Of a DNA stretch of 46,019 nt, positions 7,135 through 42,463 are shown one piece after another; position 1 is the stretch's first letter; each line of letters opens with the position of its first letter. The notes under the pieces were generated by a model, which saw only the letters and a program-made list of their open reading frames with translations, was not told the DNA's origin and searched no databases. The stretch covers positions 3,463 through 49,481 of the forward strand of contig RCNO01000018.1 of the NCBI GenBank assembly GCA_003731685.1, written 5' to 3'. This stretch comes from Bacteroidetes/Chlorobi group bacterium MS-B_bin-24 (lineage in GTDB: Bacteria; Bacteroidota; Ignavibacteria; Kapaibacteriales; UBA2268). The position numbers and the translations under genes were made by a program.

Positions 7135-7167
7135 AGTCATCGGTTGTTTTTTAAACATCCGATGTCT
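7135..7167. repeat. 33-nt hairpin repeat, copy 1
   Basis: Imperfect palindrome with a 15-base left arm (7135-7149), 3-nt loop TTT and 15-base right arm AAACATCCGATGTCT (7153-7167). The left arm differs from the consensus AGACATCGGATGTTT at two places. The right flank is CTGGA, shared with the two copies near 42 kb. It lies in the spacer ahead of the histidine kinase gene, which argues that the long upstream extension of that reading frame is not coding. Confidence 0.85.
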
Positions 7168-9547: not shown

Positions 9548-9570
9548 GGGACTGCCTTTTGAGCAGTCCC
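9548..9570 (-). terminator. Rho-independent terminator after the Fn3/T9SS gene
   Basis: Perfect 8-bp stem GGGACTGC/GCAGTCCC with a 7-nt loop, followed on the minus strand by CCCTTTTTCTTTG-type T-rich sequence. It lies just past the stop at 9591. A second hairpin (7-bp stem CATAAGG/CCTTATG, 9576-9595) overlaps that stop codon, giving two stacked hairpins. Confidence 0.85.
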
Positions 9571-9590: not shown

Positions 9591-10631
9591 TTATGGGATT
9601 AAAAGAATTTTTTTCAAAAGCAAATCACACGGGGTTTGAATTTTAACGAAATAGATTCCGGGCGATTGTGTTGAAACGTCCCAAAGGAAAGAATTTGTTG
9701 GAATGTTGTATTCAAGTATTTCGTTGCCGAGCAAATTGAATATCTGAAGTTTAAGGATTTCACCTACGAATTGTATTGTCCGAAAATTATTGTTCTGAAA
9801 GATTTTCACAGCACTTTCTTTTTGATTTTCTTCGGCACTATTAACTTTTGGAATAAGGAAAGACTTTGTCTCCGACCAGTCGCTTTCAAGTTTGCCCGAG
9901 ACCACTTTAACTCGCCAATAGAACCAAGTCTCGGTTGGAGCAGTATTCAAAATGAATGAATTTTGGTTATAAAGAGTTGCTTGCTTCAAAACGAATTCGA
10001 AATCGGAATCGTAAGCAATCTGAAAATTGTAGAAAGCATCCGCTGTTGTCATTTCCAAAGTGAATTCAATTGGCAAGTCAATAATCGACTTGTCTTGGGG
10101 TGCGAACAAAGTAGGAGTTCGAAGCGATGTGGTAAACGAATAGACTTCGCTCCAAAAACTTACAGAAGTTTGGTTAATTGCCCGAACTCTCCAATAATAC
10201 CTTGTTCCATATGCAAGCGAACCGATTTGATAAGTTGTATCGGCTATTTGTTCACTGAAAACAACACTTGCAAAGATTGGGTCGGTAGCGATTTGGATTT
10301 CGTATCTTTCGGCTTTATCGACAGGCAGCCAGCGAAGTTTATCACCAATTTTTAAATTTAGAACATTATTCACTGGGTAAACTAAAATAGGGCTTGTCAA
10401 ATAATTTTCGGGAACTGTTCTGAACCAAGAAACATCCGACCAGGAGCTTTCGAGTTCATCATTTAAAGCGCGGACTCGCCAGTAATATTTTGTCGAATAC
10501 ACCAAATTGGAATAGATGTAATAAGTCAAGCCAGTTATTTTATAAGTTTGAGCACCGAAAATAAGATTTGGGTCTTCGGAAATTTGCAACTCATAACTTG
10601 TGGCGCTGGGAACTTCTTTCCAGCGAAGCAA
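9591..10631 (-). CDS. C-terminal Fn3 repeats and T9SS sorting domain of broken gene A
   Basis: Last part of a large secreted protein whose N-terminal half is at 11456-13039. It carries the end of one Fn3-like repeat and further ones, recognisable by YYWRVRALNDELESSWSD, YYWRVRAINQTSVSFWSE and FYWRVKVVSGKLESDWSE. The tail has a type IX secretion sorting domain (NLLGNEILEY, then SPGIYFVKIQT and a Lys-Lys-Ile-Leu ending). The frame is the same as that of the preceding fragment; only a TAG at 10647-10649 separates them. It has no plausible start, signal peptide or promoter of its own, so it is expressed only if the TAG is read through, or else it is a pseudogene remnant. Coding character is intact over all 346 codons. 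Confidence 0.8.
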   Translation of the reverse strand: MLRWKEVPSATSYELQISEDPNLIFGAQTYKITGLTYYIYSNLVYSTKYYWRVRALNDELESSWSDVSWFRTVPENYLTSPILVYPVNNVLNLKIGDKLRWLPVDKAERYEIQIATDPIFASVVFSEQIADTTYQIGSLAYGTRYYWRVRAINQTSVSFWSEVYSFTTSLRTPTLFAPQDKSIIDLPIEFTLEMTTADAFYNFQIAYDSDFEFVLKQATLYNQNSFILNTAPTETWFYWRVKVVSGKLESDWSETKSFLIPKVNSAEENQKESAVKIFQNNNFRTIQFVGEILKLQIFNLLGNEILEYNIPTNSFLWDVSTQSPGIYFVKIQTPCDLLLKKILLIP

Positions 10632-10646
10632 ACCACAAATTGGAGC

Positions 10647-11446
10647 CTATGTATCGGCAAAAGGTGGAACAATCAATTCTGGTTTTGGCAACTGAGTTTT
10701 AAAATTAAAGACTTCCGACCATTCGCTTTTACCATTCTCGCCCGTGGCACGAACTTTCCAGAAGTATTCTTTTGCGGGCTCAAGGTTGGTGTAGTCAAAC
10801 TGGTTATCTTTTAAGTCCACTATTTCAATCTGGTTATTAATAAACTGTTTATTTGTCGAAACAACCAAGTAATAATGAATTGCACCGGGCACAGGACTCC
10901 ACTTTAAAGTTCCCGAAGTAGGTATGTTTTTGCTACCATTTTCGGGGAACAGCAGCAAAGGAGCCGAAAGCATCGTTTTAAATTTCCTGATCTCGGACCA
11001 GATGCCATATTGTTCTCCACGAGTCAGCCTAACTCTCCAAAAATATTCGGTGAAGAAATCAAGATTGGAAATAGTTACAATAGGATTAAAAACAGTTGTG
11101 TCTATAACAATCTTTTGGAAGTTCTTATCAATCGACAATTGGAATTGATAAGCCCAGGCATTGTCGCTTGCCAGCCAAGTAAACTGGACACTTATTGGCA
11201 TATCGAGTGTGCTATCCAATGGCGAAAGGAGAGAAATTCGTTCGTAAATAGTCGTAAATCTTTGAGTTTCTGCCCAACTACTGGTACAATTTTCTCGCTC
11301 AGCACGAACTCGCCAAAAATAAGTTTTCCGGGCAGAAGTTGCGAAGTGTATACATAAAAAGTATCTATTATGTTTGATGTGTCCTTTACTAAATATTGAA
11401 AATTTGGGTCTGTTGCTATCTGGATATGATATCTTTCACCAGACAT
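10647..11446 (-). pseudogene. Middle Fn3 segment of gene A with frameshift
   Basis: Encodes about three Fn3-like repeats. It opens in the same frame as the upstream half (MSGERYHIQIATDPNF follows the TAG at 11456). At about 11324-11327 the frame breaks: the expected TYFWRVRAEREN appears only if one A is added to a run of four (GGAAAACTTAT). After that the other frame runs on through FTWLASDNAW, EYFWRVRLTRGEQYGIWSE and EYFWKVRATGENGKSEWSE to a TAG at 10647. The missing base in a homopolymer may be a real deletion or a sequencing error. The upstream TAG falls where sister repeats have Trp (PKFI-stop-KKFMSGERYHIQIA), compatible with TGG to TAG. Confidence 0.7.
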
Positions 11447-11455
11447 AAATTTTTT

Positions 11456-13039
11456 CTAAATAAACTTTGGGGATAAAGAAACATTTATTTCATTATTGGA
11501 AGGCGACACTGGGACTGGCACTCCAATTCCTGCGGTTCCTATGCAATATTCTCCAATACCAGCGAAAGAAGTTTCCAATCTGTTTGCTTGGCTGTTGAAG
11601 GTAGTATTTAATTCCGTAAAACTGCCAAAACCTTCTGCCGAACGGAAATAAACCTTAAGTTCTCTGGGGTCGTTGAACCCACTAAGTCCCGAAAGGTTAA
11701 AATATAAATAACCACCGAGAGAATTTATTCCTTGCTTTGTAATAACCCAACGATAGGGGAGCACTGAACAAGGACCGCCTTGATTCAAATTGTAGGGAGG
11801 GTATCGATGCTTTTCTATCGTTACCTTTCCCGTCCCGCTTATGCTGTTAAGAACAAAAGTAGTGTTTGTGTTGTAAGTGCTGTTGACGAAATTATATTGT
11901 CCGGCGGAATTTACCGAAAGTGTAACAGGATCGGATTTGAAAATAAAGCGAAGAGCCCTATATGTCCCACTATTTGAAAGCAATTCTAAGGCAATTTCGC
12001 CCGTTGGGGTAACCTCCGAAAGTAAATAATTGTGACCGCCTTCGGAAAACGAACCACTCCAACCAATTAAAGTGTTTCCATTTGGCAATCGCTGCACACT
12101 ACCTCCGGCATCAGAAATGATATTGTTGGGACCACGGTATTCCCAGACCTTTGTAGCTCTTCGATTAGCCTCGTCGATACTATATTCAACTGCACGAGAG
12201 AATGGATTTCGCCGGAGGTTCCCATTGTCGAATAGAAGAATATTCCCATTTGGCAATTCCCGAGGGTCGTGTTGATGCGAAAACCCAAAGAAATTATCAA
12301 TAGTATCGTTTACAAAAGTGAATTGATTGTTTCGACTTTTGCTTCCACCCATCCGCCAGATTATTTCCCCAGTTTGTTTGTTGATTTTAATGATCTCATC
12401 CATATGCCGACACGAAATCAAAAGATTGCCATCGCTCAACATTTCTACTGAGTTAATGTGAAAAGGCCTGATATAACTGTCTTGCAAATCGATATCTTCG
12501 GTAGCATCAAGAACCGAAAAGTGGTCGATGGCATTCCATTGCCAAACTACTTGCTTTGTGCTCGGGTTAATTTCCTGCAAAATGAAATCGTTTACTCTCG
12601 CATTGGGATGACCATTCGGGACGTATTGCCGCATATCGATATACACATCAGCCTCGGCAATCACCAGATAGTTTCCATTGGGCAATATCAAAAAGTCGTG
12701 AAAATCCGTTGTGTATCCAATGGCACCAGCTGTATCCAGAACATTGAAATTTGAATCCAAAACGATAAATTTTGGGCTCAAAAGATCGTAAGCAGACAGT
12801 TTGCCGTTTGGGTGCATTTTAAAGTCCATAAATCCTTGATTTAAAAATCCAAAAGATTTTGAAAAAGCTTTATAGCCGGAATTGTCGTAAACTGCAAGCG
12901 AATTATCCATTGGAGCCAGAAAGAGATACCCCGGAGAAGGGTTGTTCCAAACTGTTCTTTGAATTAATTCGCTTTCTGAATGTAATAAATAATTATTCCA
13001 GAAAATAAGGATAATGAAAATTGTGAAAAATCTATTCAT
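11456..13039 (-). CDS. Arylsulfotransferase-like secreted protein A (N-terminal part)
   Basis: Secreted protein with an N-terminal signal peptide (MNRFFTIFIILIFWNNYLL) and a beta-propeller of the arylsulfotransferase type (Arylsulfotran_2/ASST). Typical motifs are DFHDFLILPNGNYLVI, HINSVEMLSDGNLLISCRH, GEIIWRMGG, HQHDPRELPNGNILLFDNG, and VQRLPNGNTLIGW near residue 320. ASST enzymes move sulfate between phenols in the periplasm, but in this lineage many such proteins are uncharacterised, so the activity is not assured. It starts 8 bases after the stop of paralogue B, so the two form a tandem pair read in the order B then A. The visible product ends at a TAG (11456-11458), beyond which the same frame continues into Fn3 repeats and a T9SS tail. 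Without readthrough the product would lack a secretion tail. Confidence 0.82.
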   Translation of the reverse strand: MNRFFTIFIILIFWNNYLLHSESELIQRTVWNNPSPGYLFLAPMDNSLAVYDNSGYKAFSKSFGFLNQGFMDFKMHPNGKLSAYDLLSPKFIVLDSNFNVLDTAGAIGYTTDFHDFLILPNGNYLVIAEADVYIDMRQYVPNGHPNARVNDFILQEINPSTKQVVWQWNAIDHFSVLDATEDIDLQDSYIRPFHINSVEMLSDGNLLISCRHMDEIIKINKQTGEIIWRMGGSKSRNNQFTFVNDTIDNFFGFSHQHDPRELPNGNILLFDNGNLRRNPFSRAVEYSIDEANRRATKVWEYRGPNNIISDAGGSVQRLPNGNTLIGWSGSFSEGGHNYLLSEVTPTGEIALELLSNSGTYRALRFIFKSDPVTLSVNSAGQYNFVNSTYNTNTTFVLNSISGTGKVTIEKHRYPPYNLNQGGPCSVLPYRWVITKQGINSLGGYLYFNLSGLSGFNDPRELKVYFRSAEGFGSFTELNTTFNSQANRLETSFAGIGEYCIGTAGIGVPVPVSPSNNEINVSLSPKFI

Positions 13040-13047
13040 AAATCACC

Positions 13048-14184
13048 TCAATTTTTCAAGATAATTAAAGGCATTTTAAAAACTTGTCCGTTTGAACGAA
13101 AAACAAGAAAGTAAAACCCATTGGGCAAATGCGAAATGTTCAATTCAATAACGGAATCCTCCGTAGTAAATAAGTCATAATCGAAAACTTTTATTCCATA
13201 AAGGTTAATAACTTCAATTTTTTGAATTTGTGTTTGGTTAAATTTCAAGTTCAGCTTCCCATTGCAAGGATTTGGAGAAACAACAACAGAATTCAATATC
13301 TCTTCGACGCTGTTTGGTTCGGTAATAGAAAATGGCATACTTTCGGCAAAAATTTTCCTGTTTTTTAAAGACGTTATGCGAATCTTATAATCATTACCAG
13401 GTTGAACAAGATTCGATACATTCCAAATATATTTTCCAAAGGCGCTATAAAGCGAGTCGGAAATATTCATAAATGGAGTTGTTCCTTTCAATAGTGTGAT
13501 TTCGAAAGCAGGATAAATATTATGTTTCCATACGATTGCAACATCGGTTTCCTTTATCCATTTGGCACCACTGTCGGGATAAACAATCACAATAAATGGT
13601 TCGGAAATGTGGAACGAACGAACCTCCGACCATTCGCTGGCTCCGACTTCATTAAATGTTTGAACTTTCCAGAAATAATCACCAGCGGGCAATTTCCCCG
13701 CATTAAAATGGTTCGTTTTGATACTATCGATTTCAGTTGCTTCGATGAAATTAACACTGTTCGAAATAACCAACTTGGAGAATTTAGTTAATCCCTGCGG
13801 TGTCCATTGGAACATCACTGAATCCTCGGTGTTCAATTTTGCCTCGTTAGGCGGAAAAGTAAGAATCGGTTTCAAAGGGGCAGAGGGCAGTTTTGATGTA
13901 CCAAAAATGTATTCCCCATCGAGATTATCTACCGAAGCCACAAGAATTTGCTTTTCGGAATCGTAACTGCTGAGCAAAGGCTCAAATGGTGAATCTTTCG
14001 AAACTCTACGCCATACTATTAAGTCCTTTTTATGCAAGGACAATGGAAATTTTGACATATCGAAAGTCAAATTTGCTTTGCAATTAAGTATATTTTGAGT
14101 TTTAATTATCACTTTGTACTGATTTACAAGAGGAGTTGAAGTAGTAAAGCGGGGATAAAGTGGTGCATACGGATATTTTTCCAA
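13048..14184 (-). CDS. C-terminal Fn3 and T9SS part of broken gene B
   Basis: In-frame continuation of the arylsulfotransferase-like gene B beyond a TAG at 14203-14205. It contains a linker (EKYPYAPLYPRF), an Fn3-like repeat ending DYFWKVQTFNEVGASEWSEVRSF, a second beta-sandwich-like region (IVYPDSGAKWIKETDVAIVW) and a type IX sorting domain (VVVSPNPCNGKLNLKF, then INLYGIKVFDY and LPNGFYFLVFRS). The candidate ATG at 14184 has no signal peptide, so an independent product would stay in the cytoplasm with a useless sorting tail. It is either reached by readthrough or is a pseudogene part. It ends TGA, 8 bases before gene A. Confidence 0.78.
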   Translation of the reverse strand: MEKYPYAPLYPRFTTSTPLVNQYKVIIKTQNILNCKANLTFDMSKFPLSLHKKDLIVWRRVSKDSPFEPLLSSYDSEKQILVASVDNLDGEYIFGTSKLPSAPLKPILTFPPNEAKLNTEDSVMFQWTPQGLTKFSKLVISNSVNFIEATEIDSIKTNHFNAGKLPAGDYFWKVQTFNEVGASEWSEVRSFHISEPFIVIVYPDSGAKWIKETDVAIVWKHNIYPAFEITLLKGTTPFMNISDSLYSAFGKYIWNVSNLVQPGNDYKIRITSLKNRKIFAESMPFSITEPNSVEEILNSVVVSPNPCNGKLNLKFNQTQIQKIEVINLYGIKVFDYDLFTTEDSVIELNISHLPNGFYFLVFRSNGQVFKMPLIILKN

Positions 14185-14202
14185 ATTGATTTTCGAGCCG
14201 GG

Positions 14203-15867
14203 CTAGTCGTTTAGCTCCGTAAAGTTTATGATTATTCCTGTATCAGTTGTATCATTCCTAAAATATAAGCTATCGTTTTGATTTTGAACCAAGGACGAAA
14301 TATTTTCGAAAGAAACTACCGCCTCGGGTAGATTTGTTGGATAAGGATACCGATAGGCACAGTACGAAGTAGTTTGGAACGATACTCCCTTGGGGAAGGA
14401 CAATTCAAATTCGACTTCGCCTTGGGGGTTCACTTCGGTAACAATTCGGATATGCCCAGTGCTAACTCCGCCCCAACCGATTACAGTATTTCCATTCGGA
14501 AGTCTTTGGGTGGAACCCATAGTTTCCCCGAATACATCAGGATTATTTCTATATTCCCAAACAAGTTGGGCTTTAAGATTCTGCTCGTCAAGTTTATATT
14601 CAACAGCTCTCGAATATTGTGGGTTGTGCTGAACACCATTATCGTAAAGAGTGATGTTCCCATTTGGTAGTCGCCTAATGTCGTGTTGATAAGAAAAATA
14701 TGTTGGGGCATTTTCGGGATGTTCGTTGATAAAGGTGAATTGGTTCCTTTTTCCGCCAAGTCGCCAGATAATGTTTCCCGTTTCACGGCTGATTTTTGTT
14801 ATCTCTGAAAGGTGGCGAGACGAAATCAAAAGATTTCCGTCGTAATCAAGCTCGACAGCATTTATATGAACAGGGTCGAGGGCAATACCATCGAGCGGAG
14901 CATAGGTATCGGTAATCGGTATGTAGTCCCAGCTTCGCCATTGAAAGACAACGTTCTTGTCGGCATCAAGTTCTTGAACGATACTTCCTAAAACAATAGC
15001 ATTGGGATTTCCATTTGGAACAATCTGGCTCATATCCACAGGTTGTGGGTCGTAAGAAATAAGGAGATAATGCCCGTTCGGTAACATTTTGAAGTCGTGG
15101 AAATCGGCTATGTATCCGCCTTTGCATTGCAAAGTGTCGATTACCTTCAAATTTCCATCCATTACTTCCATATATGCTTCTGCCCAGCCCCATCCCTGTG
15201 GGATATGTGAAGTAATAATGCGAGCATTAGTCAATAGCCCATTCGGTTGCATTTTGAAATCAAATCCCGGAAGCGGAACTTTACGATATTTGACAGGTGT
15301 CCCATCGTTGTTTAAAATCATTAAATAACTTCTGTCCACGCCACTCCCAAAGTTCGCTAAATAAATATAACCCGGTGCAGGATTCCGCACCGAATTAATA
15401 ATTATCTTCGGGAAGTCGGATGGTATCGAATCCAAAGGAATGTCGTCTGTCTCTTTCGGTGCATTTGCAAAAATCTTTGAAATTTCGGGATAAGAGGGCA
15501 AGAAATATTTAGCAAATAATTCCTTCTGCTCTTGAGGCGAAATTTTGCTTGTTCTGAACGAAAACTTTTCCCCGTTGATGGAAACAATTACATCCTCGTC
15601 GAGGGCAAATGGTCGAGATGTTCGAATCGAGACTGTGCGGTTGTCGTCGGAAATTCGGACATCGAAAGAATGGTCTCCCGACTTTTCGCCTAAAATTTTG
15701 ATGGAGAGAGAAATTTTGCTTGGGTCAATCGCACGGTCGAAACGCAAAACAATAGGTGTTTGGATTGAGTGCTTATCGGTGTTAGGTTTTGGATAAATAT
15801 ACGACAAAGATTGTGAAAACGCTGGGAAATTCAATAGAACCAAAAACAAAAGAATTAAATTTCGCAT
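14203..15867 (-). CDS. Arylsulfotransferase-like secreted protein B (N-terminal part)
   Basis: Signal peptide MRNLILLFLVLLNFPAFSQ fixes the start at 15867; in-frame ATGs at 15882 and 15906 only add hydrophilic residues. After it comes an Ig-like domain of Big_5 type (IYPKPNTDKHS to about residue 95), then an arylsulfotransferase-type propeller with FHDFKMLPNGHYLLI, HINAVELDYDGNLLISSRH, GNIIWRLGGKRNQFTF, HDIRRLPNGNITLYDNG and TQRLPNGNTVIGWGG. It is the first gene of the B-A tandem and clearly paralogous to A, differing by the extra Ig-like domain. The frame ends in TAG at 14203, after which the same frame stays open for 378 more codons to a T9SS tail. Sulfotransferase activity is inferred from family only. 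Confidence 0.82.
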   Translation of the reverse strand: MRNLILLFLVLLNFPAFSQSLSYIYPKPNTDKHSIQTPIVLRFDRAIDPSKISLSIKILGEKSGDHSFDVRISDDNRTVSIRTSRPFALDEDVIVSINGEKFSFRTSKISPQEQKELFAKYFLPSYPEISKIFANAPKETDDIPLDSIPSDFPKIIINSVRNPAPGYIYLANFGSGVDRSYLMILNNDGTPVKYRKVPLPGFDFKMQPNGLLTNARIITSHIPQGWGWAEAYMEVMDGNLKVIDTLQCKGGYIADFHDFKMLPNGHYLLISYDPQPVDMSQIVPNGNPNAIVLGSIVQELDADKNVVFQWRSWDYIPITDTYAPLDGIALDPVHINAVELDYDGNLLISSRHLSEITKISRETGNIIWRLGGKRNQFTFINEHPENAPTYFSYQHDIRRLPNGNITLYDNGVQHNPQYSRAVEYKLDEQNLKAQLVWEYRNNPDVFGETMGSTQRLPNGNTVIGWGGVSTGHIRIVTEVNPQGEVEFELSFPKGVSFQTTSYCAYRYPYPTNLPEAVVSFENISSLVQNQNDSLYFRNDTTDTGIIINFTELND

Positions 15868-25866: not shown

Positions 25867-26164
25867 GTAGGGGCGAAAAATTTTTCGCCCATCCAGATCG
25901 TTCTCATTTGTGGATAGTTTCGTGGGGCAATTCAGGAATTGCCCCTGCAAGATATTAAATTATTTGGTGTTTTAACTGAAAACCCGATTTCCTGCAGCAA
26001 ACAGGCTTCATTACAAAAAGACATCGGATGTTTTCGAAACATCCGATGTTTGAAAATATTTGTAGTGGCAACCGGCCAGTCGCCCCTATGGTTGTGATGA
26101 TGCAGTGGAAATGGTTGAGCATTATGTTTTGTTATGTAAGGGCAAGTTATGAATTGCCCCTACA
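25867..26164. repeat. Nest of unrelated palindromic repeats in a gene-free region
   Basis: The 618-base spacer 25790-26407 has no convincing gene. It holds at least five palindromes: GGGCGAAAAATTTTTCGCCC (25871-25890, perfect); GGGGCAATTC/GAATTGCCCC (25924-25945, 2-nt loop); the 33-nt hairpin repeat at 26019-26051; an imperfect one with core ACCGGCCAGT framed by GTAGTGGC and GCCCCTAT (26062-26089); and TGTAAGGGCAA/TTGCCCCTACA (26135-26164, one mismatch). Four of the five share a GTAGGGGC...GCCCCTAC-like outer frame with different inner cores. Confidence 0.75.
26019..26051. repeat. 33-nt hairpin repeat, copy 2
   Basis: Left arm AGACATCGGATGTTT (26019-26033), loop TCG, right arm AAACATCCGATGTTT (26037-26051); one base of the right arm differs from consensus. 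Unlike the other three copies the right flank is TGAAA, not CTGGA. Confidence 0.9.
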
Positions 26165-42275: not shown

Positions 42276-42308
42276 AGACATCGGATGTTTTAGAAACATC
42301 CGATGTCT
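42276..42308. repeat. 33-nt hairpin repeat, copy 3
   Basis: Perfect 15-bp stem: AGACATCGGATGTTT (42276-42290), loop TAG, AAACATCCGATGTCT (42294-42308), then CTGGAGG. It is in the 526-base gene-free spacer 42165-42690, which holds this copy, copy 4, a cluster of TTTACA/TGTAAA motifs and a promoter-like box, but no credible gene. Confidence 0.93.
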
Positions 42309-42430: not shown

Positions 42431-42463
42431 AGACATCGGATGTTTTTGAAACATCCGATGTCT
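42431..42463. repeat. 33-nt hairpin repeat, copy 4
   Basis: Perfect 15-bp stem: AGACATCGGATGTTT (42431-42445), loop TTG, AAACATCCGATGTCT (42449-42463), then CTGGAGA. It lies 122 bases beyond copy 3 in the same orientation. A shorter direct repeat (GYAACTCCTTGC) occurs between them at about 42332 and 42387. Confidence 0.93.

Follow-up and report, generated by a model that had tools for sequence, protein, structure and literature searches.

Two neighboring arylsulfotransferase genes, here called B and A, are interrupted by in-frame TAG codons ahead of a T9SS tail, and the locus raises the question of whether both copies are decaying or whether the TAGs are read through to give a long, secretable form beside a short one. 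The original prediction had offered these two choices. The pair lies on the minus strand of the window, by which we mean the whole stretch of 46,019 nucleotides that was analyzed, and its features are as follows.

13048-15867, minus strand: gene B, arylsulfotransferase (PF05935/PF14269), split by one TAG
14203-14205, minus strand: in-frame TAG of gene B, at a position that is Glu, Glu, Val and Lys in the genus-mates
13051-14202, minus strand: open remainder of gene B, 384 codons, with the Fn3-like region and T9SS tail
9591-13039, minus strand: gene A, the other arylsulfotransferase, carrying Fn3 repeats plus a T9SS-type tail, interrupted by a TAG, a frameshift and a further TAG
11459-13039, minus strand: front part of gene A, 527 codons still open, with a complete arylsulfotransferase match
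11456-11458, minus strand: first in-frame TAG of gene A, at a TGG (Trp) codon invariant in the four genus-mates
11318-11334, minus strand: frameshift of gene A, at about 11324-11330, past which the Fn3 homology carries on in another frame
10647-10649, minus strand: second TAG of gene A, lying in the post-shift frame, where all four genus-mates have Leu
9548-9570, minus strand: terminator-like hairpin just 3' of gene A (9 pairs, 6 of them GC, and a T-rich tail), a consensus match only

Arylsulfotransferase profiles (PF05935/PF14269) match the two genes at 98.2 and 123.4 bits, where the cut-off is 24.2, and a PF05935 search of the whole genome returned two matches, which are genes B and A themselves, with no other ASST copy. 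Gene B encodes a signal peptide, an N-terminal Ig-like domain, the propeller, an Fn3-like region and a T9SS sorting tail. The TAG reported at 14203-14205 is present in the assembly, and apart from it gene B is a single frame, with a front part of 554 codons and a remainder that closes at a TGA after 384 codons; the 378 codons originally given for this remainder are reached if counting begins at the first TTG. The T9SS tail claimed for the end of gene B is confirmed by a PF18962 match of 44.1 bits.

Gene A carries three disabling changes rather than two. Both of its reported TAGs are found in the assembly, on the minus strand, but the statement that the same frame continues after each TAG holds for gene B and fails for gene A, where a frameshift separates the two TAGs. 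The N-terminal frame of gene A (phase of 13039) reads ...YTSQLLPGKL and closes at 11192-11194, and from about 11327 the Fn3 sequence is picked up in a different frame as TYFWRVRAERENCTSSW... (...LLPGK, followed by TYFWRVRAE...). The net shift would fit the loss of one base from an A-run, and the two ORFs past the shift share a phase that is not that of the start. The Fn3 and sorting-domain sequence described downstream of the TAGs is still present in both genes, although in gene A it stands in the shifted frame, and the tail of gene A is weaker than that of gene B (28.1 bits against a cut-off of 27 in the genome search). Between them the two genes carry three nonsense changes and one frameshift, or four disabling changes in all.

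The genus is represented in our collection by five genomes, the source genome and G001-G004, with no second genome of the same species. In all four genus-mates the B-A pair occurs in the same order, with the A orthologue directly downstream of the B orthologue, and is intact without stops over its full length of 947-1027 codons (B) and 1150-1157 codons (A). Protein identity to these orthologues is 58-60% for B and about 50-68% for A. Sense codons stand at every TAG site in the four genomes: GAA, GAA, GTT and AAG at the site in gene B, TGG at the first site in gene A, in agreement with the earlier assignment of that TAG to a Trp position, and CTT or CTC at the second site in gene A. At columns invariant in the other four genomes, genes B and A are changed at 7.5-20% of positions here, compared with 1.6-27% in the intact genes. 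The breaks therefore appear to be recent on the time scale over which the genus diverged, since the conservation of the B and A sequences falls inside, or not far from, what the intact orthologues show. Codon-model branch tests (dN/dS) gave no difference or relaxation on this branch, with synonymous sites saturated and little power. Gene B has its named relatives among metagenome assemblies of Ignavibacteria and Ca. Kapabacteria, which makes an uncultured Ignavibacteria-type bacterium the most likely host. The orthologous B-A pairs in such assemblies (L070, L071, L080; G002) share order, orientation, domain layout and length with the pair studied here; they differ from it in having no stops or shifts and in flanking genes unlike those of the window. 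The genes flanking the pair in G001-G004 (L088-L096) likewise hardly match the flanks of the window by tblastn, and therefore the B-A neighborhood seems to have been reshuffled within the genus.

The genome has no ASST genes besides these two, which between them carry four disabling changes; the orthologues are intact in every one of the four genus-mates, and the rest of the pair's sequence is conserved. This supports the first of the two choices, that both copies are young pseudogenes: genes B and A are probably a recently inactivated two-gene arylsulfotransferase operon undergoing ordinary gene loss. Judged by disabling changes set against intact orthologues, B and A both class as pseudogenes. 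Bacterial nonsense and frameshift pseudogenes likewise show several independent disabling changes where relatives have intact genes, and nothing tested sets the B-A pair apart from them. On this account the ancestor of the genus would already have had the pair, as an operon encoding secreted arylsulfate sulfotransferases, and selection for arylsulfotransferase activity would have been lost in the source lineage. Stop and frameshift mutations would then have accumulated in both genes, with polarity from the stop in gene B lowering the expression of gene A and speeding its decay. Fixation of these changes in the population, like the order in which they arose, is inferred. At most, the locus would still give truncated proteins with a signal peptide and catalytic propeller that lack the T9SS tail and stay in the periplasm. 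The source lineage may be able to do without a secreted arylsulfotransferase pair that all four other genomes examined from the genus possess. Nothing found requires a new mechanism; a search of the plasmid collection gave no match, and literature searches returned nothing on the B-A locus.

The second choice, programmed or suppressor-mediated TAG readthrough giving a long secreted form beside a short one, was suggested by the long conserved open frame past each TAG and by the fact that three of three stops are amber, and we now consider it scarcely credible. Reading through the TAG restores an uninterrupted single frame in gene B but not in gene A, where because of the frameshift a full-length product could not be made even if both TAGs were read. 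RF1 is encoded (TIGR00019, 502 bits), as is RF2, and TAG is an ordinary terminator, ending 44 of the 231 long coding-like ORFs in the 446 kb scanned. The suppressor tRNA with a CTA anticodon that had been proposed as a check is absent from the 46 tRNA genes found in the genome (RF00005 search, anticodons read by ARAGORN). Genome-wide recoding of TAG was rejected, with TAG in use as a stop, RF1 present and no CTA tRNA. A pyrrolysine system was likewise rejected: the best PylS matches reach 25.5 bits against a cut-off of 178, and sub-threshold matches of this kind also occur in most control genomes. None of the three stops has the CARYYA readthrough context (TAG CCC, TAG AAA and TAG GCT), and the RNA structure 3' of the stops is unremarkable for two and modest for the third (z -2.0, 8 of 200 shuffles). 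The relatives have no conserved stop, only the sense codons given above. That all three interruptions are amber is correct for the assembly, but the pattern has a chance of about 5% given the one-step codon neighbors, and three identical stops of any kind a chance of 14%, so that we dismissed it as a signal. The case carries a caution: a run of amber codons with conserved sequence behind them mimicked readthrough, and the genus comparison, the frameshift, and the inventory of tRNAs and RF1 pointed instead to ordinary gene loss.

Gene loss has also to be weighed against sequencing, assembly or strain-mixture error, by which the genes would be intact and the consensus wrong at several positions. 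The source genome, G000, is a metagenome assembly of 2.60 Mb in 109 contigs, estimated to be 98.8% complete and 4.66% contaminated, and the window is positions 3463-49481 of its contig C18. Scattered single N bases were seen in many contigs (eleven loci), with none in the window. Several other genes with T9SS tails also seem to be split by frameshifts, as two long overlapping ORFs in different frames with the tail in the second, among them G000:C8:44793-46107 (site at about 45.46 kb), G000:C17:44787-46167 (about 45.4 kb) and G000:C62:2-1673 (about 1.0 kb). These reflect either a wider decay of large secreted proteins in the lineage or assembly indel errors. Because the assembly is in many contigs, with scattered Ns and frameshifted-looking T9SS cargo, some of the breaks in B and A could be sequencing or assembly errors; the frameshift in gene A, which fits one missing base, and the well-conserved coding sequence outside the breaks are in keeping with this.

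A scan for genes split by nonsense changes, based on coding potential and same-frame ORF pairs, covered 446 kb, made up of the window plus twenty stretches of 20 kb. It recovered two of the three TAGs, missing the first TAG of gene A since the frame past that TAG is cut short by the shift, and the other top candidates inspected were ordinary adjacent-gene junctions. No other nonsense-split gene was found in the 446 kb, the scan detecting nonsense splits only. Three independent substitution-type nonsense changes thus fall within 6.3 kb of N-free window, against none in about 400 kb outside it, and random errors should not pick out the only two ASST genes of the genome. Error is unlikely, although it stands next to gene loss in probability.

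A further alternative to gene loss is functional truncation, in which the front parts, 554 codons in gene B and 527 in gene A, would still be produced as periplasmic arylsulfotransferases lacking the T9SS tail and Fn3 region. His356, Asn358, Arg374 and His436 have catalytic roles in E. coli AssT, which is itself periplasmic (PMC13426309). All four have aligned counterparts in gene B before the TAG, and gene A has matching HIN, RH and QHD motifs before its first TAG by alignment to gene B and the relatives. Both first TAGs fall past the catalytic propeller. The catalytic parts of B and A are complete, and on this alignment evidence both are predicted sulfotransferases. The propeller is common to B, A and known AssT/ASST proteins (PF05935; E. 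coli AssT, 3ELQ; sulfotransferase, 9KF4/9KF6), with the AssT residues aligned in gene B as well, whereas the intact genus orthologues add Ig/Fn3-like domains and a T9SS tail, and B and A are interrupted by stops. The T9SS sorting tails of both genes are encoded behind the stops. The genome still possesses the T9SS route itself, with SprA in a 2263-codon open frame and about 70 Por_Secre_tail matches above cut-off.

In the share of changes at otherwise invariant columns, the source-genome branch is the highest only in the post-TAG part of gene B (20% compared with 5.7-14%). In favor of truncation, the relative divergence of this part is greater here than in G002-G004, though not greater than in G001. 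The tail of gene A gives no signal of relaxation. The chance that all four breaks fall 3' of the catalytic part is about 11%, so this positional bias argues only weakly for a selected truncation. The TAG of gene B lies inside a stretch that is conserved in the relatives, where A and B align, so that the short product of gene B would break off partway through a domain. A comparably short form is absent from the relatives. We regard functional truncation as quite improbable. That parallel stops just past the catalytic domain re-targeted both enzymes from secretion to the periplasm, with the short forms functional and selected, is a shade less probable again.

Two further observations concern the genome at large. 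The RF2 gene (contig G000:C30, locus L034) has an apparent in-frame stop region near its start, as in prfB genes with a programmed frameshift. A dispersed 29-nt palindrome, ACATCGGATGTTT-NNN-AAACATCCGATGT, with a variable loop, is present in about 120 copies in the genome; it was not found in the four genus-mates, and a reversed control pattern gave no copies. The window holds four copies.

7135-7167: palindrome copy
26019-26049: palindrome copy
42276-42308: palindrome copy
42431-42463: palindrome copy

The copies in the window seem to sit between genes or at a gene edge, and the palindrome has the look of a REP-like or mobile family restricted to this species.
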